From: Paracoccaceae bacterium
GTDB lineage: Bacteria; Pseudomonadota; Alphaproteobacteria; Rhodobacterales; Rhodobacteraceae
Reading direction: 5' to 3'
Length of the DNA: 64,000 nt
Assembly: GCA_022824005.1 (NCBI GenBank)
Contig: JAJEBG010000019.1
Location: 1 to 64,000 of the forward strand
In this document: positions 5,727 through 64,000 of the stretch, one piece after another
How the letters are laid out: every line of letters begins with the position of its first letter
Position numbering within the stretch: the stretch's first letter is position 1
Made by a program: the position numbers and the translations under genes
Notes under the pieces: model-generated
The model's input: only the letters and a program-made list of their open reading frames with translations
What the model was told of the DNA's origin: nothing
The model's database searches: none

Positions 5727-5991
5727 CAGACGTGTTCCTCATTTGAGCATAGCGAGACAAGCTCACTCGATACCGCTTTCATGAACGCACTCCATGAGAT
5801 TTCCTTGATGCTAAAGAGGCACGTCTCCCTCAATTGCGTGGAAAAGTCTCATTGAGCGGCCAACCTGACAGTCAATGACTCCCACACTCTGGCCATTTAA
5901 AGGCCAAGCAAAAAGCCGATCTGACGACATATTGTGTTGGCCTATTTTGGGTTTAACTCTTTCACCAACCTATAACGAAAGAGATCAAACT

Positions 5992-6369
5992 ATGAATGAA
6001 GTTGAGTGTCCTGCTGATCAGTCTCAAACCTTAACCAAGCGTCATTTGAAGGGACTAGAATGGTCCGACCATGAAGTTGAGACTTTAATCGCCGCATGGA
6101 AATCCCGAATTTCCTTTAAAAAAATTGCCCGTAAGATTGGACGCAGCCGGAAATCTGTCGTCATCAAAGCCTGTCGATTGGGTCTGACCGCGCGGCCCTA
6201 CTGGAATGACCAATATGTCGAGAACGCCCGCCGCAACGGACGCTCTCGACGCTGCTTAAACTGCCGCAATATTTTCTTTTCAGAAAACTCTGGAAATCGC
6301 ATTTGTTTGCAATGCAAAGACCGTCAAGCTTGGCAAGCCGGCAATGACCTCGCCGGACCGAGCGGCTGA
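5992..6369 (+). CDS. Myb/GcrA-like helix-turn-helix plus zinc-ribbon protein
   Basis: A 125-residue basic protein. Residues about 22-70 ('WSDHEVETLIAAWKSRISFKKIARKIGRSRKSVVIKA') look like a SANT/Myb or GcrA-type DNA-binding helix bundle; residues about 90-115 hold two CxxC pairs ('CLNCRNIF', 'CLQCKDR') forming a zinc ribbon. The ORF opens at 5875, but the ATG at 5992 follows 'AAAGAGATC' and starts the protein just before the conserved part. It is followed 11 bases later by the primase gene and lies divergently to icmD, so it is a plausible regulator or initiation-accessory factor of the mobile element. No named family assigned; DNA binding is inferred from the fold pattern. Confidence 0.7.
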   Translation: MNEVECPADQSQTLTKRHLKGLEWSDHEVETLIAAWKSRISFKKIARKIGRSRKSVVIKACRLGLTARPYWNDQYVENARRNGRSRRCLNCRNIFFSENSGNRICLQCKDRQAWQAGNDLAGPSG

Positions 6370-49791: not shown

Positions 49792-50871
49792 TTATTGCGT
49801 GGCCGCCATGTTGGATTCGGAAATTTCCATTTCCGCTGCTGCCGCCGCTTCCACAAGCGCATCAAAAACTTCTTGTCCGCCTTTCACATTATCCTTGAAC
49901 CAGACATAAACTGGTGACGCGGCGTCCCTAAACATTTCCTTCTCTTCTGGTGTGGGTACGTAAAGCGTGCCCCCAGCTTCCATAAAATCCTCATAGGCTT
50001 GAATGGATTTGCGTTTCGGTGAAGCAAATGTCGCTTGCTGCAATGCCGAAAATCCGTCGGCCACAACAACCCGTAAACCTTCGGGCATTGCCATCAACTT
50101 TTCATTGTTCATCCACCATAGAGCGCCCATATAGGCGTGACCATCAAGCGTCACATATTTGAGACCCGCATCAGGGAATTTCATTCCCATTATGTCAGTG
50201 ATGCCGTTCTTGGATCCCTCAACAACGTTTGTTTGTAATGATGTGAAAAGTTCCGGCCACGGAATGGGCGTCGGGTTGGCACCCAAGGCTCGAACCAGCT
50301 CCTGCGGCAAATCAGCGACAACTGTTCGGATTTTCATCCCCTCGAGGTCACTGGGCACTCGGACTGTTTTCACGGTGTTGGCGAAATTTCTCCAACCGCC
50401 GGTGTTTCCAATGGTCATCAAGCGAATAGTTCCGCCGGAGTCTTCAAGTGCCTTATCCCGAAGCAAATCGACAAAATCTCCACGCAAAACTGTTTCTGCC
50501 ACTCGGTCGTCTCGAAGCAGGTAGGGGAGATCAAAAATCTGCACATAAGGAAATATACCCGCCGCGCCACCGGATGTAGAAATGTACACATCAATGGTGC
50601 CATCGGAAATTCCCTGTAGGCATTCAGCACCGTTGGCGCAGAGCTGCGTACCCTGGAATATCTCGACGGTTACCGCGCCGTTGGAGCGGGACTCGACATA
50701 GTCTTTGAAGACAACAATACCATCATAATCTTCATCATTAATGTCGCCCCCGACAACCGCTCGCAGGTTGTAATCCGCGGCTAAAGCCGCAGAAGTGGCG
50801 ATGGAGATCGCGGCGACAACTCCTAGCAGGGATGTCAACAAGTTTAAGAATAATTTCGTCATCGGTTTCAT
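49792..50871 (-). CDS. dctP: TRAP transporter substrate-binding protein DctP family
   Basis: A periplasmic binding protein of about 359 residues with signal peptide 'MKPMTKLFLNLLTSLLGVVAAISIATSAALA'. The ATG at 50871 is preceded by GGAGGAAA; the track start is 15 codons early. 'EGMKIRTVVADLPQELVRALGANPTPIPWPELFTSLQTNVVEG' contains the Arg and Asn/Pro positions that bind carboxylate ligands in DctP proteins. Last gene of Q-M-P; 132 bases separate it from dctM and hold an inverted repeat. Substrate: a carboxylate, not further defined. Confidence 0.9.
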   Translation of the reverse strand: MKPMTKLFLNLLTSLLGVVAAISIATSAALAADYNLRAVVGGDINDEDYDGIVVFKDYVESRSNGAVTVEIFQGTQLCANGAECLQGISDGTIDVYISTSGGAAGIFPYVQIFDLPYLLRDDRVAETVLRGDFVDLLRDKALEDSGGTIRLMTIGNTGGWRNFANTVKTVRVPSDLEGMKIRTVVADLPQELVRALGANPTPIPWPELFTSLQTNVVEGSKNGITDIMGMKFPDAGLKYVTLDGHAYMGALWWMNNEKLMAMPEGLRVVVADGFSALQQATFASPKRKSIQAYEDFMEAGGTLYVPTPEEKEMFRDAASPVYVWFKDNVKGGQEVFDALVEAAAAAEMEISESNMAATQ

Positions 50872-50891
50872 CTTTCCTCCGTATGAAATTG

Positions 50892-50936
50892 TTTGACACA
50901 GACTCGGTAGTACCAATAATCCTCGTCTGTGTCAAA
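50892..50936. promoter_or_regulatory. 12-bp inverted repeat upstream of dctP, possible operator/promoter
   Basis: TTTGACACAGAC and its exact complement, 21 bases apart, between dctM and dctP. On the minus strand the distal arm contains TTGACA, followed after about 17 bases by a weak TACTAC; this could be a separate dctP promoter with the repeat as operator, or an mRNA hairpin. Confidence 0.55.
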
Positions 50937-51003
50937 ATAATTCTCTAGTCATAACGTTCGGTCATGCACGGCCCAGCCCAAGAGAGAGAAGACAAGAGGA
51001 GCC

Positions 51004-52296
51004 CTATTGCACGAAGCCAAAGAATCTCGGCATGAACATCGAAATTGACGGAATGTAAGTGATCAAAAAGATCACGATGATTTCCACCGCGAGGAAAGGA
51101 AGAATGGTCTTCGCTAGTGCTTCGACACGCTCCCCAGAAATAGCTGAGGCTACAAACAACACCAAACCCATCGGTGGTGTCACCAATCCAACGGTTAGAT
51201 TGACCGACATAATGATAGCGAAGTGAACGGGATGTACGCCAAGATCGACAAAAATCGGTCCCAGAATCGGTCCCAAAATTATGATGGCCGGGCCCGCGTC
51301 TAAGAACATGCCAACGATAAACAACAGCACATTGATAAGAAAAAGCAAAATCAGCGGGTCAGACGATAAGCTCAAGACCCAACCAGCGAGAATTTCCGGT
51401 AGATGGCTGAGACCGACAATGGATTTGAAGGCAATGGCCGCTCCGACAAGCAAAAGGACAACAGTCGAGGTTAAGCAGGCACGGGTCAAAACCGTCGGCA
51501 GATCACGCCATGACATCGTCTTGAGTACAAAAATACTGATGAGCAGTGCGTAACCCACGGCCACTGCTGAAGCTTCTGTCGGTGTAAACACGCCTCCTAG
51601 TATTCCACCCAGAATGATGAGGGGTGTCAATAAAGGAAAAAAGGCCCGCCCGGCCGTGACGCCTCTCTGCTTCCACGACGCCCGTTCTGACGCCACCGGA
51701 AAACCATACCGTCGCGCCAGAACTCCAGTCATCATCATCAGCCCCAAGCCCATCAAAATTCCCGGAATCATCCCGCCAAGAAACAACGCCGCCACCGACT
51801 CGCCCATGACATAGGCATAGATAATCATAATCCCCGAGGGTGGAATGATCGGGCCGATGACCGATGAGGCGGCGGTGATCGCGGCCGCAAAACGGCGCGA
51901 ATACCCATTTTTCTCCATCGCCGGTATCAGCATTGAACCCAAGGCCGAGGTATCCGCAACCGCTGAACCAGACAAGCCGGCAAAGAGCATAGACGAGAGG
52001 ATGTTCACATGCGCCAGACCGCCCCTAAAATGACCCATCATCACTTGCGCGAAATTGACCAATCTTAGTGTGATCCCCCCACGGTTCATCAATTCTCCGG
52101 CCAGCATAAAGAATGGAATAGCCATGAGAGGAAATGAATCGATACCGTTGTAGATATTGCGGTAAAGAAACGCGATGTCACGCTCTTGACCATTCAACCA
52201 GAGGATGATGCCCGGTGCCGCCAACATGGCGAAAAACACCGGCACTCCAAAGCACAAAAACAGCAGAAACAATGGAAGAAAGGTAACCAGCATCAC
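51004..52296 (-). CDS. dctM: TRAP transporter large permease DctM
   Basis: A 430-residue membrane protein with about twelve helices and the DctM hallmarks 'AMLAAPGIILWLNGQE', 'PLMAIPFFMLAGELMNRGGIT', 'SGSAVADTSALGSMLIPAMEKNGYSRRFAAAITAASSVIGPIIPPSG' and 'VGLVTPPMGLVLFVAS'. It is the sodium-coupled transport subunit. One base separates it from dctQ. Confidence 0.92.
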   Translation of the reverse strand: MMLVTFLPLFLLFLCFGVPVFFAMLAAPGIILWLNGQERDIAFLYRNIYNGIDSFPLMAIPFFMLAGELMNRGGITLRLVNFAQVMMGHFRGGLAHVNILSSMLFAGLSGSAVADTSALGSMLIPAMEKNGYSRRFAAAITAASSVIGPIIPPSGIMIIYAYVMGESVAALFLGGMIPGILMGLGLMMMTGVLARRYGFPVASERASWKQRGVTAGRAFFPLLTPLIILGGILGGVFTPTEASAVAVGYALLISIFVLKTMSWRDLPTVLTRACLTSTVVLLLVGAAIAFKSIVGLSHLPEILAGWVLSLSSDPLILLFLINVLLFIVGMFLDAGPAIIILGPILGPIFVDLGVHPVHFAIIMSVNLTVGLVTPPMGLVLFVASAISGERVEALAKTILPFLAVEIIVIFLITYIPSISMFMPRFFGFVQ

Positions 52297-52297
52297 A

Positions 52298-52969
52298 TTA
52301 TTCCGCTATTGCCGAAATCCGGTCCGCTGGGGGCGCGTAATGGATTGAAGAATCAAAAACCTCATGAGTCTTTTTCAATATCAACTCAATGCTGACAAGA
52401 ATCATCAGGACAAAGCCTAGCGGCAACGACATGTACATCCACGCCAGTTTGATACGAATCGATTCTTGCCCGATCAGCTGCAAAGGAATTTTGAGTGAAC
52501 TTGAGTTGAAGAGCCAGCCACTGTTGATATGCTTTTCGGCATGCTGAAGCACGATAACCAAGACAACGGCACCAAGAAGAAGAATCAAGAGAGACAGGAT
52601 CCCTCCCCAACGCTGACCGAGGAAATCCCTTATGAGGTCAATCGCGACAAAGTTTCCCCATCGATAGGCTGATGGAGCCATCAGACCCGTCATCCACAAC
52701 ATGCAGAAGCGGGCCGCTTCGTCTGGCCATGCAAGCGAATTATTCAAGACATAACGGAAGAATACCTGCAGCAACATGATGATCACCATCAGGCCCAGAC
52801 CCACAATGGCAATCCGTCGGCAGACGAGGAGGAGTGTTGAATTGACTTTTTCCAATGCGGAAACGACTCGACGGAATGGCGATGTCCCTCCTAGGGTTTC
52901 TCTTCCCTTAGTCACCAGATCGTCCTTTTGTGACCTCTCTTGAAGAGGGCGATCTCTTTGCATTCCCAA
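52298..52969 (-). CDS. dctQ: TRAP transporter small permease DctQ
   Basis: A 223-residue four-helix protein: 'IAIVGLGLMVIIMLLQVFFRYVLNNSLAWPDEAARFCMLWMTGL' is the DctQ signature. An N-terminal soluble stretch of some 50 residues precedes helix 1, longer than usual, so a later start is possible. First gene of the TRAP operon, 107 bases downstream of mnmE on the same strand. Confidence 0.88.
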   Translation of the reverse strand: MGMQRDRPLQERSQKDDLVTKGRETLGGTSPFRRVVSALEKVNSTLLLVCRRIAIVGLGLMVIIMLLQVFFRYVLNNSLAWPDEAARFCMLWMTGLMAPSAYRWGNFVAIDLIRDFLGQRWGGILSLLILLLGAVVLVIVLQHAEKHINSGWLFNSSSLKIPLQLIGQESIRIKLAWMYMSLPLGFVLMILVSIELILKKTHEVFDSSIHYAPPADRISAIAE

Positions 52970-53075: not shown

Positions 53076-54368
53076 TTATTTACCGATACAAAAACCGGCA
53101 AAAACTTCATCAAGTACATGTTCAATATCTACGTTTCCAATCAGAGTTTCAAGTTGATTTATCGAAAGCCAAATTTCTTCAGCCGCCAATTCGATCCGAT
53201 TCACTTTCATCATTGAGTCTCTCGCTATCTTCAAATGCCCGATACCGCCCTCTATGGCGGCTCGATGTCGAGCATGCGCAGCGGTCATCGCTATTCCTGA
53301 ACGCTTTTCCAATTCATCGGCGAGGGATTGCGTCAAATGATCCACGCCGAATCCCGTCAGGCCAGAAATCCCGTTTGGTGGTGGAGGACGATAGAGATCG
53401 GCCTTGCATTTTAAAATCAAATCACCGGTCAAAAATTCGGGACTATTGTCTGGAACCCCATCACCCTCGACAAGAAAGACCCGCAGATCAGCTTCCTTAG
53501 CCCTTTGACGGGCTTTGTTCACTCCCATTTTCTCAATCGGATCGATGGCATCTCGTATGCCGGCTAAATCAAGCAAAGTTACGGCCAATCCGGCGATTTC
53601 CATTCGCACTTCAATGACATCACGCGTCGTGCCAGAGCGTTCAGACGTAAGGGCGGCTTCGCGGCCAGCAAGACAGTTCAACAAGGTTGATTTTCCTGTA
53701 TTTGGAGCCCCAACGATGGCCACTTCAAAACCATCACGGATACGCTCCGCGGCTTGGACGCCTTGAATCTCCTTTTCTAAAGACTGGATCAGATCTTCTA
53801 TCCTATCATGCGTTGAAGACATCAGATCATGGGGCAAATCTTCATCAGAGAAATCAAGTGATGCCTCTAAAATTGCCGCACATTGGGTTAGACTCTGTCG
53901 CCACTCTTCAACCCTTTGTCCAAGTTCACCGCGAAAAAGTCGCAAGGCTTGTCGCCGCTGCGCATCTGTTTCGGCATCAATAAGATCTCCGAGCCCCTCA
54001 ATCTCTGAAAGATTCAGGCGACCATTCATCAGCGCTTGCAGGGTAAATTCCCCTGCTTCAGCCATACGCAATCCCTCTAGTGAACCTAAGGCCGCGAGAA
54101 CCGATTTGACCGTCGCCACGCCCCCATGAACATGAAATTCAACACTATCCTCACCCGTATAGCTGGCGCCTTTCGGGAAATAGAGTATGAGCGATGTATC
54201 AAGATGGCCCCATTCAGGCGAGTGCAATCGCCGCAGCGTCGATTGTCGAGGCGGCGGGAGAACACCAGCCAATTCGATGGCCGCGGTCGGGGATTTCGGT
54301 CCTGAAATGCGTATCACGGCTACGCCCGCTTTGCCGCGAGCAGAGGACAAGGCAAAAATGGTGTCCAT
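53076..54368 (-). CDS. mnmE: tRNA modification GTPase MnmE
   Basis: A 430-residue three-domain GTPase. N-terminal folate-binding part 'TIFALSSARGKAGVAVIRISGP', G domain with P-loop 'GAPNTGKSTLLNCLAG' and 'LLDLAGIRD', and the C-terminal 'FCIGK' Cys motif needed for the wobble-uridine modification with MnmG. Lies 22 bases after rho. The usual next gene, mnmG, has been displaced. Confidence 0.95.
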   Translation of the reverse strand: MDTIFALSSARGKAGVAVIRISGPKSPTAAIELAGVLPPPRQSTLRRLHSPEWGHLDTSLILYFPKGASYTGEDSVEFHVHGGVATVKSVLAALGSLEGLRMAEAGEFTLQALMNGRLNLSEIEGLGDLIDAETDAQRRQALRLFRGELGQRVEEWRQSLTQCAAILEASLDFSDEDLPHDLMSSTHDRIEDLIQSLEKEIQGVQAAERIRDGFEVAIVGAPNTGKSTLLNCLAGREAALTSERSGTTRDVIEVRMEIAGLAVTLLDLAGIRDAIDPIEKMGVNKARQRAKEADLRVFLVEGDGVPDNSPEFLTGDLILKCKADLYRPPPPNGISGLTGFGVDHLTQSLADELEKRSGIAMTAAHARHRAAIEGGIGHLKIARDSMMKVNRIELAAEEIWLSINQLETLIGNVDIEHVLDEVFAGFCIGK

Positions 54369-54390: not shown

Positions 54391-55680
54391 TCAGTTCTTC
54401 ATAGAATTGAAAAAGTCAGCATTTGTTTTTGTGGCTTTAATTCGAGGCAACAGAAATTCAATCGCTTCTGTTGTCCCCATCGGATTGAGTATACGACGAA
54501 GAATATACATTTTGTGAAGTTCTTGCTGCTCCACCAGCAAGTCTTCCTTGCGGGTACCAGATTTCAGAATGTCTATGGCCGGGAACATTCGCTTGTCAGC
54601 AATTTTCCGATCAAGCACGATCTCTGAATTTCCTGTGCCCTTGAATTCCTCGAAAATCACCTCATCCATACGGCTGCCTGTATCAATCAGAGCGGTCGCG
54701 ATAATGGTCAATGAACCTCCCTCTTCGATATTACGCGCCGCGCCAAAAAAACGTTTTGGCCTTTGCAAGGCGTTGGCATCTACACCGCCACTCAAGACTT
54801 TCCCAGACGATGGCACCACCGCATTGAACGCCCGTCCTAGTCGGGTAATGGAATCAAGCAAGATCACCACGTCACGTTTGTTTTCGACCAGCCGTTTCGC
54901 CTTTTCAATCACCATTTCAGACACTTCAACATGGCGTTCGGCTCTTTCGTCAAAGGTTGAAGCAATAACCTCACCATCAACGCTTCGCTGCATATCGGTG
55001 ACTTCTTCGGGTCGCTCGTCAATGAGGAGAACAATCAAAAAACACTCAGGATGATTTTCTGAAATCGAGTGGGCGATATTCTGTAATAAGACCGTCTTGC
55101 CGGTTCGAGGCGGGGCCACGATCAAGGCCCTTTGTCCTTTGCCAAGCGGGGCCACCAAATCAATGACGCGAGCCGACCAGTCCTGAACATCCGGTTTATT
55201 GACCTCCATCATCAATCGTTCATCGGGATAAAGCGGCGTTAGATTGTCAAAGGCAACAAGATGCCGAGACGCTTCTGGTGCATGAAAGTTGATGGTCGAG
55301 ACGCCATCAAGACTAAAATATCGCTCCTCTTTGACCGTGGTATCGCCGCGATTGGGCGCGATAATACCGCCCCCAACCGTCGCCCCTGTTCGTAGCCCGT
55401 ATTTGCGAATAATTTTTGGGTGAACATAAATGTCATCAGGTCCGGGAAGATAATTTGACTCGGGTGAACGCAGCATTGCAAATCCATCCGAGAGAATTTT
55501 TGCAACCCCATCTCCGTAGGTCTCCCAACCATCTTGGGCACGGGCGCGCATGATCTCATACATCATGGTTCCCTTATCCATTGAGGAGGCCCCCTCTATC
55601 TCTAACTCCTCTGCCATGGTTACCAATCGCTTCGGTGTCATGGTCTTCAACTCAGAAAGTGAAATCCTTTCTTCAGGCAT
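54391..55680 (-). CDS. rho: Transcription termination factor Rho
   Basis: A 429-residue hexameric RNA helicase. Rho N-domain '[25 protein letters not shown]', RNA-binding cold-shock part '[33 protein letters not shown]', Walker A '[15 protein letters not shown]' and '[16 protein letters not shown]'. Length is standard. Transcribed from a good promoter (55762-55791) with a leader of about 75 bases, in which autoregulation by termination is common for rho. Confidence 0.96.
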
Positions 55681-55761
55681 TTAAATATCCTTTGATTATC
55701 GCAAGCCTTGCGGCCTCTCTGTCATGTCGGGGAATTATCGGGCTGGCGCGCCCATCATTTG

Positions 55762-55791
55762 ATTGTACACGCACCTGATCAGACCTGTCAA
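55762..55791 (-). promoter_or_regulatory. Sigma70-type promoter of rho
   Basis: On the minus strand a perfect TTGACA (55786-55791), an 18-base spacer and TACAAT (55762-55767). Start of transcription is expected near 55755, about 75 bases before the rho ATG. Confidence 0.7.
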
Positions 55792-55853
55792 GCGCCGAGA
55801 AAGGTATTTTGACCAACAACGGGAGTCTCCATCCATGACCGAATAACGCTTTC

Positions 55854-56297
55854 TCAAAATGGACGAACAATCACCATGATCACAATGACAATCAATAGCA
55901 CCGTTGGCACCTCATTCATCCTTCGGAACATTTTGGCACTGAGGCGACAGTCTCCATTGAGCAAATCTCGCCTTCGTGCCGCTAACCAAAATTGAAACCA
56001 AGTCATTGCCAAGATGGCGGCAAGTTTGAGCCAGGGCCAAAACGCCTGCCAATCTATAATGCCCGGAACCCATAGCAGTAAGAGACCAAAAATCCATGTC
56101 AGTAGCATGGCCGGTGTCGCGATAATTTGAAGCAAACGCCTTTCCATCACCGAAAAAATGTCGTGCGAATTTGACTCTCGTCCACCGCTGCTAACATGAT
56201 AAGAATAAAGTCGCGGCAAGTAGAAAAGAGCGGCCATCCAAGCGACCATGGATATGATATGCAAGGCTTTGAGCCAGGGGTATAGAACAATCATCAT
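55854..56297 (-). CDS. hemJ: HemJ, protoporphyrinogen IX oxidase (UPF0093 family)
   Basis: A 147-residue four-helix inner-membrane protein. 'WLKALHIISMVAWMAALFYLPRLYSYH' carries the conserved His residues that bind haem, and 'RMNEVPTVLLIVIVIMVIVRPF' closes it as in other HemJ proteins. It catalyses the oxidation step before haem synthesis. Located at the origin edge next to rho; hemE and hemH, which precede it in many alphaproteobacteria, are absent here. Confidence 0.93.
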   Translation of the reverse strand: MMIVLYPWLKALHIISMVAWMAALFYLPRLYSYHVSSGGRESNSHDIFSVMERRLLQIIATPAMLLTWIFGLLLLWVPGIIDWQAFWPWLKLAAILAMTWFQFWLAARRRDLLNGDCRLSAKMFRRMNEVPTVLLIVIVIMVIVRPF

Positions 56298-56379
56298 GAC
56301 GATTTCGTTTCAATAACCTACAGACCTTATAATATAAATAAATAAATAAATAGTAATATATTTTGTTGATGTTGGAGGC

Positions 56380-56397
56380 TGTGGAAATTGTGAATAA
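56380..56397 (-). promoter_or_regulatory. Tandem DnaA boxes
   Basis: TGTGGAAAT directly followed by TGTGAATAA. The second is the exact complement of TTATTCACA and matches TTATNCACA; the first differs at two positions. Both face the AT-rich stretch 20 bases to the left. Confidence 0.7.
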
Positions 56398-56622
56398 GTA
56401 AAAATTTTTGAGAGATTTCGATTTTTTTGAAGCCTGATAGCAACTGTTAACAGATTGTTTTGACACCAAAAAGAGATGACAATTCTGGCAACAGATACGA
56501 GAGGGTTGGATCGTTATGAATATTGGATATGATGGTAATTCTTGAGTATAAAGCCATGAGAGATTCTGGAAAACGCGCGTATCATTGAATTTTCATCACT
56601 CATCAACCTCACCATTCATGGC

Positions 56623-56631
56623 TTATCAACA
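56623..56631 (+). promoter_or_regulatory. DnaA-box-like site near maf
   Basis: TTATCAACA, one mismatch from TTATCCACA, 15 bases before the maf start; could be a weak DnaA site of the origin and also affect maf transcription. Confidence 0.45.
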
Positions 56632-56645
56632 GGTTTATTGAAGAG

Positions 56646-57245
56646 ATGACAGTTGGTATTGTGCTCGCTTCTGGCTCAAAAACCCGCAGGAAGATATTGG
56701 AGAACGCGGGGATTTCTCTCGTTGTTGAACCGGCTAGAGTTGATGAACAATCGTATCGACAATCACTTGAGGCGGAAGGCGCGAATCCGCTATCAATGGC
56801 CACCGCGTTGGCTGAAATAAAGTCGCGACGCGTATCTCACCGACACCCGCAAAACCTCACCATCGGGTGCGATCAAATTCTGGAATTCGAGGGCAAAAGC
56901 CGTGGCAAGGCGGCGGATATGTCAGTGGCGAGGGAATTCTTGCGGGAATTGCGGGGTCACACACATCAACTTCATTCGGCGGCGGTGATTTGCCAAGATT
57001 CACAACCTGTTTGGCGAGATGTCTCAACGGCTCATGTTACCTTCAGACACTTCTCTGATACCTTTCTGGAAAATTACCTCCAAAACGTCGGTCCAGAAAT
57101 CCTTGATAGTGTGGGCGGCTATCAGATTGAAGGTCAGGGAATTCGATTGATTGCTAACCTTCGAGGCGATATCTATGCCGTATTGGGCTTGCCAATGATC
57201 CAACTTCTTGGCTATTTAGTGAGAAGGGGGGCGATTGACGGCTAA
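56646..57245 (+). CDS. maf: Maf-family nucleotide pyrophosphatase
   Basis: A 199-residue house-cleaning enzyme hydrolysing non-canonical or modified nucleoside triphosphates. 'VLASGSKTRRKILENAGI' is the Maf N-terminus, 'KSRRVSHRHPQNLTIGCDQILEFEGK' carries the catalytic Asp, and 'VGGYQIEGQGIRLI' the C-terminal motif. First gene right of the origin; its stop overlaps the aroE start by one base. Confidence 0.93.
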   Translation: MTVGIVLASGSKTRRKILENAGISLVVEPARVDEQSYRQSLEAEGANPLSMATALAEIKSRRVSHRHPQNLTIGCDQILEFEGKSRGKAADMSVAREFLRELRGHTHQLHSAAVICQDSQPVWRDVSTAHVTFRHFSDTFLENYLQNVGPEILDSVGGYQIEGQGIRLIANLRGDIYAVLGLPMIQLLGYLVRRGAIDG

Positions 57246-58096
57246 TGGATTCACAACCTAGAAGGCCATTCCTGACGGGCGTGATAGGTGAACCCATTGG
57301 GCATTCCCTATCACCACTTATCCACGCTCACTGGCTTCAGCAGCACCAGATTGTAGGTCATTATGTTCCGCTGGAAGTCACAAGAAGTGATTTGGCCGCC
57401 GTCGTCAATTTGCTGCCGCGAATGGGATTTCGCGGTGTCAATATCACCATACCCCACAAGGAATCGGTTCTCAAAATTTGCGACTCGGTGTCTGACCAAG
57501 CGGCATTAATTGGGGCCGTCAACACTTTGACAATCCTTGATGGAGAGAAAATTCATGGCCATAATACGGATGCCTATGGAATCATTCAAAGTTTGAAAAC
57601 AGAGAGTCAGGTTGAAGGAACTTGGAAAGCCGAAGATGGACCCATTTTGGTGTTGGGAGCTGGTGGGGCGGCTAAAGCGGTCGTCTTTGGGTTGATTTCA
57701 GATGGCGCGAAGGAGATCCATATTGTCAATCGGACGCGAGAGAAGGCAGAATTGATCAAAAAGGAATATGGAACCCGCATTTCTGTCCATAGTCGGCCAG
57801 CTTTGGAACATTTGGTCAGCAAAATGCAAACCATAATCAACACCACGTCGCTTGGAATGGAAGGAAAACAATCGCTGCCCTTTCCCTACGACGAACTGGT
57901 CGCCAAGACGGTTGTGTTAGACCTTGTTTACGCGCCGCTTTGGACTGAGCTTCTTCGCGAGGCGAAAAAGCGGGATTGTACAGTGATCAATGGCTTGGGT
58001 ATGTTGCTTCATCAAGCGGCCCTGTCTTTCAAGCATTGGTTCAATATCCTCCCAACAGTCGATGTCTCTCTCCGTGAAGCGGTTCTGTCCAAATGA
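57245..58096 (+). CDS. aroE: Shikimate dehydrogenase
   Basis: A 283-residue NADPH enzyme of aromatic amino acid synthesis. 'GEPIGHSLSPLIHAHWL' (shikimate binding), 'GVNITIPHKE' with the catalytic Lys, 'AVNTL', the nucleotide loop 'VLGAGGAAKAVVFGL' and 'GLGMLLHQAALSFKHWF' at the end are all standard. Start overlaps maf, stop overlaps coaE by four bases. Confidence 0.95.
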   Translation: MDSQPRRPFLTGVIGEPIGHSLSPLIHAHWLQQHQIVGHYVPLEVTRSDLAAVVNLLPRMGFRGVNITIPHKESVLKICDSVSDQAALIGAVNTLTILDGEKIHGHNTDAYGIIQSLKTESQVEGTWKAEDGPILVLGAGGAAKAVVFGLISDGAKEIHIVNRTREKAELIKKEYGTRISVHSRPALEHLVSKMQTIINTTSLGMEGKQSLPFPYDELVAKTVVLDLVYAPLWTELLREAKKRDCTVINGLGMLLHQAALSFKHWFNILPTVDVSLREAVLSK

Positions 58097-58695
58097 ACAA
58101 TAAACGGTTTTGTCTCGGCCTCACCGGTTCAATTGGAATGGGAAAGACAACGGTCGCGGCGATGTTTGCGGCCCACGACGTATCTATTTGGAATGCCGAT
58201 GACGCGGTCAATAGGATTTATCAGACGGGGGGTGGTGGCAGCCAAGCTTTACGCGATATCGTTCCCAAAAATGTGTGTGAGCCGGGGGATCGGATCAACA
58301 AGAAAAAGCTACGGACGCTCCTTGAGGACGAGCCGAACCTTCTCAACAAGATTGAAAGCGCCATTCATCCCTTGGTCAAACGTGATCGCCAGGACTTCAT
58401 GTCAAGAACAAAAAATGGCATCGTCGTGGCCGAAGTTCCATTGCTCTTTGAGACTCAATCACAGTCAGAATTTGATGCCGTTGCGGTCGTTGTGGCACCG
58501 GCCGAAATTCAGAAAGATCGGGTTATGAAACGAGAGGGGATGACGCGCGAGCGATTTGAATTGTTGAGAGGTCGCCAAATGCCAGATGCCGAAAAACGGC
58601 GGCGCGCCGATTACGTCATCTGTTCTCTGAACAAGGACACCGCCAAAAGGGATGTGATCGCCATTTTATCGCGAATAAGGGGTTCGAAAGAATGA
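58093..58695 (+). CDS. coaE: Dephospho-CoA kinase
   Basis: A 200-residue kinase for the last step of CoA synthesis. P-loop 'GLTGSIGMGKTTVAAMF', 'NADDAVNRIYQTGG', 'IESAIHPLVKRDRQDFM' and 'VAEVPLLFET' fit CoaE. Overlaps aroE and dnaQ by four bases each. Confidence 0.95.
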   Translation: MNNKRFCLGLTGSIGMGKTTVAAMFAAHDVSIWNADDAVNRIYQTGGGGSQALRDIVPKNVCEPGDRINKKKLRTLLEDEPNLLNKIESAIHPLVKRDRQDFMSRTKNGIVVAEVPLLFETQSQSEFDAVAVVVAPAEIQKDRVMKREGMTRERFELLRGRQMPDAEKRRRADYVICSLNKDTAKRDVIAILSRIRGSKE

Positions 58696-59399
58696 CATTG
58701 TTGGCTTTTGATGTCGAAACCACAGGTCTGAAAATTGAAGATGGAGACCGGATCATCGAAATTGGATTGGTGGAACTTGATACCAATCTCATGGAACTGA
58801 CGGGCCGAGAATTTCATCAATACCTCAATCCAGAACGCTGGATCACTGAGGACGCTTTGAGTGTTCATGGACTGGACAATGACTTCTTACAGGACAAACC
58901 AAAATTTAGTGAAATTTCACAGGAATTGCGTGATTTTATTGGCGATTGTCAGCTCATCGCTCACAATGCACAATTTGATCTTGGATTTCTCAACCACGAG
59001 TTCAAACGCGTCAAATCACCAATAATTCCATCGAAGAAGGTGCTCGATTCGTTAGAGATAGCGCGCCGTGAATTGCCGCATCTCAGTCGATTCAGCCTTG
59101 ATGCGCTGTGCCGACATTTTGAACTTGACTTGAGCCGTCGTCAAAAACACGGCGCGCTTGTTGATGCGATGCTGCTCGCGGAGGTTTATTTCCGCTTGCT
59201 TGGGAATGGTCGAGATCTTTTTGAGTCTTCTGAGAGCGAAGACCAAAAAGGAAGATCGAGATTGTTCCACAACGATCAAGCCGTCGCCAAAAAACGTCCC
59301 AGACCCCTCCCTTCTCTTCTCACCGCCGAGGAGAAACAGATGCACCAAGAAAAAATGAAAGAGTTGGGTGAAAAAGTTCTATGGGCTCAATATTTGTAG
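58692..59399 (+). CDS. dnaQ: DNA polymerase III epsilon subunit (3'-5' proofreading exonuclease)
   Basis: A 235-residue DEDDh exonuclease. ExoI 'AFDVETTGLKIEDGDRIIEIGLVEL', ExoII 'LIAHNAQFDLGFLNHE' and ExoIII 'QKHGALVDAMLLAEVYFRL' are intact; the tail of about 60 residues would bind the alpha subunit. Last gene of maf-aroE-coaE-dnaQ; its stop is two bases from that of convergent secB. Confidence 0.94.
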   Translation: MTLLAFDVETTGLKIEDGDRIIEIGLVELDTNLMELTGREFHQYLNPERWITEDALSVHGLDNDFLQDKPKFSEISQELRDFIGDCQLIAHNAQFDLGFLNHEFKRVKSPIIPSKKVLDSLEIARRELPHLSRFSLDALCRHFELDLSRRQKHGALVDAMLLAEVYFRLLGNGRDLFESSESEDQKGRSRLFHNDQAVAKKRPRPLPSLLTAEEKQMHQEKMKELGEKVLWAQYL

Positions 59400-60964: not shown

Positions 60965-62059
60965 ATGTTTAACACATTTAAATTGGCCGCGATCTCAATG
61001 ATGGTGGCGTCGTTTGCTTTTGCCGTCGCACAGGCCGAGACGGTATTAAGGATTCAATCTGCGACACCGGCCACCGCTGACGAACACCTGATGCTTGAAC
61101 AATTTGCCCAAGATGTGGCCGATTTGACCAATGGCGAAGTGCAATTCGAAGTGCTGCCCGCCGGTGCGGTCGTGGGTGTGGGTGATATTATCGACGCCGT
61201 TGATTCAGGTCTCGTTGATGGTGGTTTTGCTTGGACGCATTATTGGTCCGGAAAACATCCAGCCGCTATGCTGTTTGGCTCGCCCGTCGCTGGCGCTGGC
61301 CTCGGAATTGACAATATCGCGTTCCTATCGTGGTTTCTCTATGGTGGCGGAAGCCAACTCTATGACCAGTTATGGGATGAAATGGGTGTCAATGTGAAAG
61401 GCTTTATGCTTCAGCCGGTAGGGCCCGAAGCTCTCGGTTGGTTCAGCGAGCCGATCAACTCAATGGACGATTTCCGCAAATACCGCTTCCGCACACCTCC
61501 AGGTATCCCGGGCCAGACCTATAAGGATATCGGTGTCGCCTCGGTGGCGATGGGCGGCGGTGATATTCTGCCGGCCCTTGAGCAAGGGACGATTGACGCG
61601 GCTGAATGGTGCTGCCCAAAACCAGACAGTATTTTTGGCTTTCAAAAGGTCTTGAAACATTACTATCTGCAAGGACTTCATCAAGTTGTCGTTAATGCTG
61701 ACCTCTACCTTAATGGAGATGTCTACGACAAACTGACAGATCACCAGAAGAAATCCATAGAAGTCGCGGCCAACGCGTCGTTGATTAAGTCCTTGGGTTA
61801 CCGAATCTATGAGAACGGTAAAGCGTTGAAAGACCTGACCGAAAACCATGGAGTTCAGCTTCACGATACGCCAGCAGACTACTTTCCCGCGTACATGAAT
61901 GCGGCCAAGGCGACACTGCAGAAAAACGCTGCCGAAAATGAGTTTTTCTCGAAGGTTTGGAACAGCCAGCGTGAATTTGCAGAGATTGCTGTCCCGTTTT
62001 GGGCAGGTGCACAAACGTCGAATGCGGGTCTCGGTAAAGCATTTGCTGATGCTCAGTAA
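60965..62059 (+). CDS. dctP: TRAP transporter substrate-binding protein, DctP family (second system)
   Basis: A 364-residue periplasmic binding protein with signal peptide 'MFNTFKLAAISMMVASFAFAVAQA' and an unusually strong ribosome site (TAGGAGGTAA). 'DDFRKYRFRTPPGIPGQTYKDIGVASVAMGGGDILPALEQGTIDAAEW' contains the ligand-binding Arg and the family's Glu-Trp. 'CCPKPDSIFGFQKVLKHYY' resembles the TakP/2-oxoacid and mannitol/chloroaromatic subgroup. Followed by a hairpin and the fused DctQM permease. Confidence 0.9.
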   Translation: MFNTFKLAAISMMVASFAFAVAQAETVLRIQSATPATADEHLMLEQFAQDVADLTNGEVQFEVLPAGAVVGVGDIIDAVDSGLVDGGFAWTHYWSGKHPAAMLFGSPVAGAGLGIDNIAFLSWFLYGGGSQLYDQLWDEMGVNVKGFMLQPVGPEALGWFSEPINSMDDFRKYRFRTPPGIPGQTYKDIGVASVAMGGGDILPALEQGTIDAAEWCCPKPDSIFGFQKVLKHYYLQGLHQVVVNADLYLNGDVYDKLTDHQKKSIEVAANASLIKSLGYRIYENGKALKDLTENHGVQLHDTPADYFPAYMNAAKATLQKNAAENEFFSKVWNSQREFAEIAVPFWAGAQTSNAGLGKAFADAQ

Positions 62060-62080
62060 TCAACCTGTATCTGGTTGATT
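62058..62080 (+). terminator. Hairpin between dctP and dctQM
   Basis: AATCAACC, seven-base loop, GGTTGATT: a perfect 8-bp stem starting within the dctP stop codon. A second, GC-rich imperfect hairpin follows at about 62101-62135. No U-run, so likely mRNA protection or partial termination that lowers permease relative to binding protein. Confidence 0.55.
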
Positions 62081-62148
62081 GACTAGCCAAATAACGCAAA
62101 CGCCGCTGGCGGGGTTGACCCTCGCCGGTGGCGGCAAGGTATTTGCGG

Positions 62149-64000
62149 ATGGCAGTACAAGAAATTCCTGACAATTTGGATGTCACTGACGAGCTGATTG
62201 CCGAAAGACGCTCCATGCGTCCTGGTGAAACACCCGAGGACATGGTCCCTTGGCAGCGCACCACCATCAAAATCATTGACAACGTCAATCTTTGGATTGG
62301 CCGCGTCACTTGCTTTCTCCTTTTGCCGGTGATCTTGGCAATGGTGTATGAGGTGGTGGCGCGCAAACTTTTCGTGGCCCCGACTCTTTGGGCCTACGAT
62401 GTCAGCCGAATGTTTGCGGGGGCCTTGTTTATGCTTGGTGCGGGATACGCGCTCATGCAAGGTGTGCACATTCGCGCCGATTTTCTCTATCGAACGTGGA
62501 GTCGAAAGGTACAAGCGACGACCGACAGCTTGCTCTACCTCGCCTTCTATTTCCCCGCGATGCTGTTCTTTTTCTGGATATCCCTAGACTTTACGATCGG
62601 CGCTTGGGTCAATTGGGAGCGCACGATGGACAGCACCATGATGGCCCCCCTCGCGCCGGCCCGCACCGCTATGCCCGCCGGGGCTCTCTTTCTCATTTTA
62701 CAGGGTTTTGCCGAATTGTTGCGAGCCTTCCACGATATGGGGAGTCATCGGGCCAGGATTATGGTTCGCATCCTCCCCGTTTATTTCATTGTGTTGCTAG
62801 GCATTTTTGTCAGTGCGATCTTTCCGGGTCTGCTGCCATTGGGAGATGTGTGGGGACAATTCGTGAGTGTTATCGGTGCCGACAGGGTGCAGCCAGAAGT
62901 CATTGGTATCTTTATGATCGCCGTGATGCTTTTCGCCATCTTTGTTGGATTTCCAATTTCTTTCACCCTCATTTTTCTAGGCTTTGTCTTTGGGGCGTGG
63001 GGATTTGGTGCCAAACTCGTCTTTTATCTACAAACCTTTCAGTTCAACTCGGTCATGCTAGAGCAAACCCTAGCGGCTGTCCCACTCTTCGTCTTCATGG
63101 GGATTCTGATGGAGCAAGCGGGGCTTATGGAACGTCTGTTTCAGTCGGTTCAATTGATGTTGTCGCGAACCCGAGGTGCTCTTTATATGGCGGTGTTGTT
63201 TGTGTCGACCATCTTTGCGGCGGCGACCGGTATTGTCGGGGCGTCGGTGACCATCCTCGGAATCATGGCGTCAAAGACGATGGACCGTGCTGGGTATGAC
63301 ACGCGGCTCGCCGCTGGAACCATCACGGCCGGTGGCACATTGGGGATTCTCATTCCGCCATCAATCATGTTGGTGGTGATGGGACCGGTTTTAGAGGTGC
63401 CGGTGACAGATCTCTTTGCCGCGGCCATTATACCAGGCATCATGCTGGCCGTTATTTATGCCGGATACGCGCTGATCCGATGCCGATTGAATCCGTCGCT
63501 CGGCCCCATCCTACCCATTGAAGAACAGCCGCAAACCTCGCCGTACTACTGGCTTGAATCGATATTGGTGATCGTTTCGCTGATCACGCTTTTTGGCCTT
63601 TTCATTATGGCACTCTCGGGATCATTAAACGGTTTATTTCCACTCTCCTTTGTGATTTTGCCCTTGGGTTGGGCGGCTCTCATGTATGGCGCGGCTCGTT
63701 GGGTCCGGCGGGCGAAGCCGGCTGGATTTTATTTTTCTGATCTGTGGTTGGAATTCTTTATCGGATTGGTGCCACCGGCCGCTTTGGTGGCGTTCGCCTT
63801 GGGCTCGATTTTGTTCGGTTGGGCCACACCTACCGAGGGCGCGGCTTGTGGGGCTTTCGGCGCGGTCTTGCTTTCAATGTTCTACCGACGATTGAACTGG
63901 CAACGATTCTTTGACGCGTTGATCAAAACATTGGAAATCACCGTTCTGATCCTCTTTTTAGTGGCCGCTTCAAACTTCTTTGGTGCCGTGTTCTCAAGGT
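62149..64000 (+). CDS. Fused TRAP transporter permease DctQM, cut by window end
   Basis: An open frame from the ATG at 62149 to the window edge (617 residues, no stop), hence missing from the ORF track. The first 200 residues are DctQ-like ('IDNVNLWIGRVTCFLLLPVILAMVYEVVARKLF', 'LWAYDVSRMFAGALFMLGAGYAL'), and the rest is DctM-like ('PLFVFMGILMEQAGLMERLF', 'ATGIVGASVTILGIMASKTMDRAGYDTRLAAGTITAGGTLGILIPPS', 'FGWATPTEGAACGAFGAV'). Fusions of this kind are well known in the TRAP family. Insert between DctM halves ('RLNPSLGPILPIEEQPQ') is long. Partner of the DctP upstream. Confidence 0.88.
   Translation, partial: MAVQEIPDNLDVTDELIAERRSMRPGETPEDMVPWQRTTIKIIDNVNLWIGRVTCFLLLPVILAMVYEVVARKLFVAPTLWAYDVSRMFAGALFMLGAGYALMQGVHIRADFLYRTWSRKVQATTDSLLYLAFYFPAMLFFFWISLDFTIGAWVNWERTMDSTMMAPLAPARTAMPAGALFLILQGFAELLRAFHDMGSHRARIMVRILPVYFIVLLGIFVSAIFPGLLPLGDVWGQFVSVIGADRVQPEVIGIFMIAVMLFAIFVGFPISFTLIFLGFVFGAWGFGAKLVFYLQTFQFNSVMLEQTLAAVPLFVFMGILMEQAGLMERLFQSVQLMLSRTRGALYMAVLFVSTIFAAATGIVGASVTILGIMASKTMDRAGYDTRLAAGTITAGGTLGILIPPSIMLVVMGPVLEVPVTDLFAAAIIPGIMLAVIYAGYALIRCRLNPSLGPILPIEEQPQTSPYYWLESILVIVSLITLFGLFIMALSGSLNGLFPLSFVILPLGWAALMYGAARWVRRAKPAGFYFSDLWLEFFIGLVPPAALVAFALGSILFGWATPTEGAACGAFGAVLLSMFYRRLNWQRFFDALIKTLEITVLILFLVAASNFFGAVFSR

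Follow-up and report, generated by a model that had tools for sequence, protein, structure and literature searches.

Where does chromosome replication start in this Paracoccaceae bacterium, and how would the DNA be opened there? The question is raised by a short gap between two genes, hemJ and maf, in the window, i.e., the whole stretch of 64,000 nucleotides analysed here, which belongs to contig C40 of the assembly. A sequence-only reading had proposed this gap as a candidate oriC, and the proposal is now backed by a skew minimum, by synteny throughout the family, by an enrichment in DnaA boxes and by an unwinding module that occurs once per genome. Judged from these comparisons, the gap at 56298-56645 is very probably the chromosomal replication origin. 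The outward gene polarity that had been pointed out also holds, with mnmE-rho-hemJ on the minus strand and maf-aroE-coaE-dnaQ on the plus strand, and the gene names were confirmed with NCBIfam:

56298..56645, no strand: predicted oriC region, the hemJ-maf intergenic gap, 348 bases, 67% AT (skew minimum, held-out profile match, synteny across 71 loci)
55854..56297, minus strand: hemJ, left flank (TIGR00701, over the cut-off)
54391..55680, minus strand: rho (TIGR00767)
53076..54368, minus strand: mnmE (NF003661)
56646..57245, plus strand: maf, right flank (TIGR00172, over the cut-off)
57245..59399, plus strand: aroE, coaE and dnaQ (NF001312, TIGR00152, NF004316)

Genes judged by sequence to encode TRAP-type transporters flank the conserved cluster on both sides, at 49792-52969 and 60965-64000 of the window.

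The position of the GC-skew minimum had been named as a check, and a switch of the skew at some other place as the finding that would speak against the candidate. The window was joined with the rest of contig C40, giving a total of 79,551 bases, and on this contig the cumulative GC skew is lowest at 56195 and the keto skew at 56350, and the largest 15-kb skew step falls at 56250; a switch elsewhere on C40 is absent. Gene direction is a partial confounder of the skew, as the gene strand also switches at the gap. A regression of the skew at third codon positions (GC3), with gene strand and arm as predictors, was therefore made, and it gave a strand-corrected arm effect of +0.054 +/- 0.013. Genes on the plus strand have a GC3 skew of -0.117 to the left and +0.033 to the right of the gap, and those on the minus strand -0.007 and +0.065, respectively. 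The assembly consists of 62 contigs, so that the skew of the genome itself covers contigs C40 and C15 only.

The elements of the predicted origin are the following:

56333..56400, plus strand: conserved origin-unwinding module, made of an A-rich run, triplets, a spacer and two boxes (profile R1, E 0.0095)
56327..56352, no strand: AT-only run of 26 nt, the AT-rich part of the predicted unwinding element
56363..56374, plus strand: four tandem triplets, TTG TTG ATG TTG, DnaA-trio-like (register from the 79-sequence profile; class-wide repeats)
56375..56379, plus strand: GAGGC, a GC-rich spacer of five bases that separates the triplets from the box, as read from the sequence
56380..56388, minus strand: proximal, weak predicted DnaA box ATTTCCACA, with two mismatches to TTATCCACA
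56389..56397, minus strand: distal, stronger predicted DnaA box TTATTCACA, aligned with the family-profile box TGTGGATTA
56623..56631, plus strand: maf-proximal predicted DnaA box TTATCAACA, with one mismatch; many relatives have a box similarly spaced from the maf start

The AT-only stretch, already noticed from the letters, is unmatched in length across the 132 kb of the genome's own DNA that was examined, and an A-rich block is conserved across 79 homologous elements. The tandem boxes are present as described, but the statement that one of them is perfect is true only of the relaxed TTATNCACA, as TTATTCACA has one mismatch to TTATCCACA; the third near-match was correctly spotted. The boxes of the window are weak, and no exact TTATCCACA occurs among them. 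Two one-mismatch boxes within 348 bases are found in 7 of 4508 overlapping segments of the genome's own DNA, in two places; the pair in the gap is thus unusual for this DNA, but taken alone it would be modest evidence for oriC. Of the traits sought in an oriC, the gap has a strand-composition switch, a cluster of DnaA boxes (weak in the window, strong in homologous gaps) and an AT-rich unwinding element.

The decisive support for the predicted oriC is comparative, and consists of the enrichment of boxes in homologous gaps and of the match to a profile from which the window had been held out. Twenty-three homologous gaps contain on average 2.3 boxes, compared with 0.086 per 400-bp control segment (the controls were taken from two relatives), i.e., an enrichment of about 27-fold, and at least two boxes are present in 78% of these gaps versus 0.4% of the control segments. 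In many relatives, a DnaA box is found just upstream of the maf start or overlapping it. At four loci (L009, L011, L013 and L026), box and maf start codon overlap (TTNTCCAC/ATG), so that maf expression might also respond to DnaA bound at this site.

HemJ was matched in 50 of the 61 genomes searched, and among the family members with a locus that was read, nearly all retain the order rho-hemJ-gap-maf-aroE. The alignment of the gaps, from which locus L004 of G001 was left out because its gap is largely made of runs of N, revealed that a module close to the start of hemJ is conserved; it is composed of an A-rich run, tandem triplets, a G-rich spacer and TGTGG-type boxes. Profile R1 (77 positions) derives from 21 relatives, with the window excluded, and its best match in the 2.26-Mb genome is C40:56333-56400 on the plus strand (E 0.0095, the second-best being 0.145), with a score of 16.5 bits that is among the lowest in the family. 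R1 matches at E <= 1 occur in 136 of 150 genera of the family. All 71 best-match loci that were checked, drawn mostly from the stronger R1 matches and covering the weaker ones only in part, sit at the rho/hemJ-maf/aroE junction, and 59 of them come from genomes outside the profile; the sole checked locus off the junction is the second-best match in the window's own genome. Outside the family R1 is noisy, as many small genomes give several weak matches, and statements at the level of the class therefore rest on synteny and triplet runs.

Three closed relatives extend the skew analysis to whole chromosomes, and in each the GC skew turns at the junction and reverses about half a chromosome away. 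In G016, the profile matches at 1.1814 Mb, where the sampled skew passes from negative to positive, and the return occurs at 3.26-3.46 Mb, with 3.35 Mb as the half-way point from the origin. The corresponding values for G006 are a match at 3.4775 Mb, an opposite switch at 1.44-1.60 Mb and a half-way point at 1.70 Mb, with a noisy skew immediately to the right of the origin; for G151 they are 2.457 Mb, 0.52-0.75 Mb and 0.71 Mb.

The sequence-only reading had also remarked that hemE, present at the origin of many relatives, is missing here. This is right: the gene sits on contig C24, beside genes that resemble hemC, hemF, recR and dnaX by sequence. The loss is not specific to this species, as most of the family members checked have no hemE at the origin; G007, G020 and G121 retain it. 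In other families, hemE is placed between the gap and hemJ. Genomes of this large family, in which hemE is mostly missing from the origin, can be oriented with the hemJ-maf position as a reliable anchor.

Could the gap simply be a divergent promoter region, its A+T richness and conserved motifs serving the transcription of hemJ and maf? The two genes diverge and need promoters, and four weak sigma-70-like matches were counted in 56200-56750 versus 2.1 expected; however, this is no clear enrichment, whereas the DnaA boxes are enriched many times over in the homologous gaps and the skew switches at the gap. Moreover, loci with hemE in place of hemJ on the left carry the module with triplets and boxes as well, so that it is tied to the junction rather than to the promoter of a single gene. 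A role in transcription only is therefore very improbable. An origin elsewhere, for instance beside dnaA on contig C15, appears more improbable still. On C15 the GC skew does change its sign from negative to positive at about 8 kb, some 3 kb from dnaA, but the genes change strand at the same place, two boxes are never found together within 348 bp of this contig, and the origin profile is unmatched on it. Furthermore, the dnaA genes of the relatives lie off the skew switch (in G016, about 216 kb from the profile match), and dnaA is not conserved near ori in Rhodospirillales (PMC8116508), which may not be the order of the window's family.

With the hemJ-maf gap as the predicted origin, its control can be considered. 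A search for CtrA or GcrA sites had been suggested, and for CtrA it gave a negative answer: TTAA-N7-TTAA is not found in the gap, either exactly or with one mismatch, and no CtrA gene was found with NCBIfam in the 97%-complete assembly. Three Trans_reg_C proteins (contigs C54, C3 and C4) are one PhoB, one OmpR-like and one divergent protein, and they reach 125-126 bits, where the CtrA model is listed, against its cut-off of 350. Because neither sites nor gene were found, a Caulobacter-type CtrA control of this origin is unlikely. Parts of the CtrA circuit are often missing in Rhodospirillales (PMC8116508), an order that may not be that of the window's family. For GcrA, the search turned up the gene at C29:1018-1548 and one GANTC site in the gap, at 56562. 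The window has another, short ORF with a GcrA-like domain at 5875-6369 (PF07750, E 1.5e-7). IHF and G-box consensus sites had no match in the gap, and no Rfam family was found over 55700-57300.

The part of the module that deserves most attention is the run of triplets. When the 79 aligned sequences are read 3'-to-5' with the spacer as starting point, 62 have GAT as their first triplet; the later triplets are mainly GTT/GTA, GTA/TTA, GTA, GTA and then GGA/GAA. The leading G occurs at 91, 96, 54, 99, 92 and 80% across the six positions, and most family members have ATG rather than TTG triplets. Four or more WWG triplets in a row are present in 34% of the family elements and in 0.9% of shuffled sequences. 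Other families commonly have three to six in a row at their hemE-maf junction, with counts of TTG 50, TAG 27, ATG 10 and AAG 5, which are approximate as a few loci represent one genome fetched twice. Perfect TTGTTGTTGTTGTTG runs were seen at the predicted origin of L088, L096, L182 and L200, which are hemE-maf junctions of other families.

The spacing is that of a DnaA-trio system: a DnaA box is expected within 16 bp of the trios (PMC8287927), and here the proximal box is 5 bp and the better box 14 bp from the triplets. B. subtilis has a GC-rich 5-mer at the position equivalent to the spacer (PMC10316083). The window triplets, read from the box, are 3'-GTT GTA GTT GTT-5', and a set of at least three in-register triplets with a central adenine (3'-NAN-5') is not found among them. 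We infer that DnaA-ATP would bind the tandem boxes at 56380-56397, aided by the maf-proximal box at 56623, and that the oligomer would extend leftwards over GAGGC onto the plus-strand triplets TTG-TTG-ATG-TTG. The adjacent AT-only run would then open, the helicase would be loaded there, and forks would depart both ways.

In B. subtilis, the central adenine of the trio is contacted by residue Asn187 of DnaA, and opening is slower when thymine takes the place of this adenine (PMC10721633). Compared with the B. subtilis structure 8btg, the DnaA of the window's genome keeps Glu228 and has Tyr at Asn187, Val at Ile190, Leu at Ile193 and Lys at Arg202. The residue equivalent to 187 is Asn in T. maritima, and aromatic (Y, F or W) in each of the 60 alphaproteobacterial DnaAs compared. 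In a survey of the basal unwinding system (BUS), no trios were found in 15% of the genomes, and its authors suspected deviant motifs that lack the central adenine (PMC8287927). Tentatively, alphaproteobacterial origins may carry such a deviant DnaA-trio, 5'-[A/T][A/T]G-3', mostly with a central T, that is read by a DnaA with an aromatic residue at 187; we infer the link between the change in the triplet and that in the residue. If so, base capture would rest on the conserved G and on Tyr stacking instead of the adenine amine. A strict co-evolution of central T and Tyr187 is weakened by G052, where TAG triplets occur together with Tyr (5'-TAG-3' element in L106, Tyr-type DnaA in L215). The aligned module, from about 80 genera, and the swapped residue together provide a concrete candidate that makes the question of deviant trios testable.

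Opening could instead follow the E. coli route, in which box-bound DnaA recruits single-stranded TTGT/TTATT, the E. coli motifs (PMC10316083), after bending, and the triplets are not read in register. A TTGT is present on the same strand at 56363-56366, and several other families carry TTGTTGTTGTTG at the equivalent site. The three-base rhythm of G by the spacer (80-99% at five of the six triplet positions, 54% at the sixth) speaks against it, as do the prevalence of ATG over TTG in the family and the unmatched IHF consensus, and this route is rather unlikely, less so than the two alternatives to the origin itself.

The predicted origin, with its candidate deviant trio, can be set beside three known systems. 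It resembles the Bacillus subtilis BUS in its tandem boxes, of which the better one is distal, and in the five-base GC-rich spacer, the triplets and the AT-rich DNA (PMC8287927, PMC10316083); in contrast, its triplets are 5'-TTG/ATG-3' and not 5'-TAG-3', and the genome's DnaA has Tyr for the adenine-contacting Asn187. The likeness to the DUE of E. coli oriC, with its TTGT/TTATT motifs, consists of T-rich triplets with TTGT beside the DnaA boxes; the gap differs in having tandem triplets, not 13-mers, and no IHF consensus was found in it. The published origins of Caulobacter and Rickettsia are bounded by hemE (PMC1914354). Compared with their hemE-COG1806 junction, hemE has left the junction here, no CtrA or IHF consensus site was found in the gap and no CtrA gene in the genome; the conserved gene neighbourhood, the DnaA boxes and the AT-rich stretch are shared (PMC1914354). 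Alphaproteobacterial origins have been published near hemE with a layout that matches that of the predicted origin (PMC1914354, PMC4741004). The position and make-up of the predicted oriC are ordinary for its class, and the altered trio is the interesting part.
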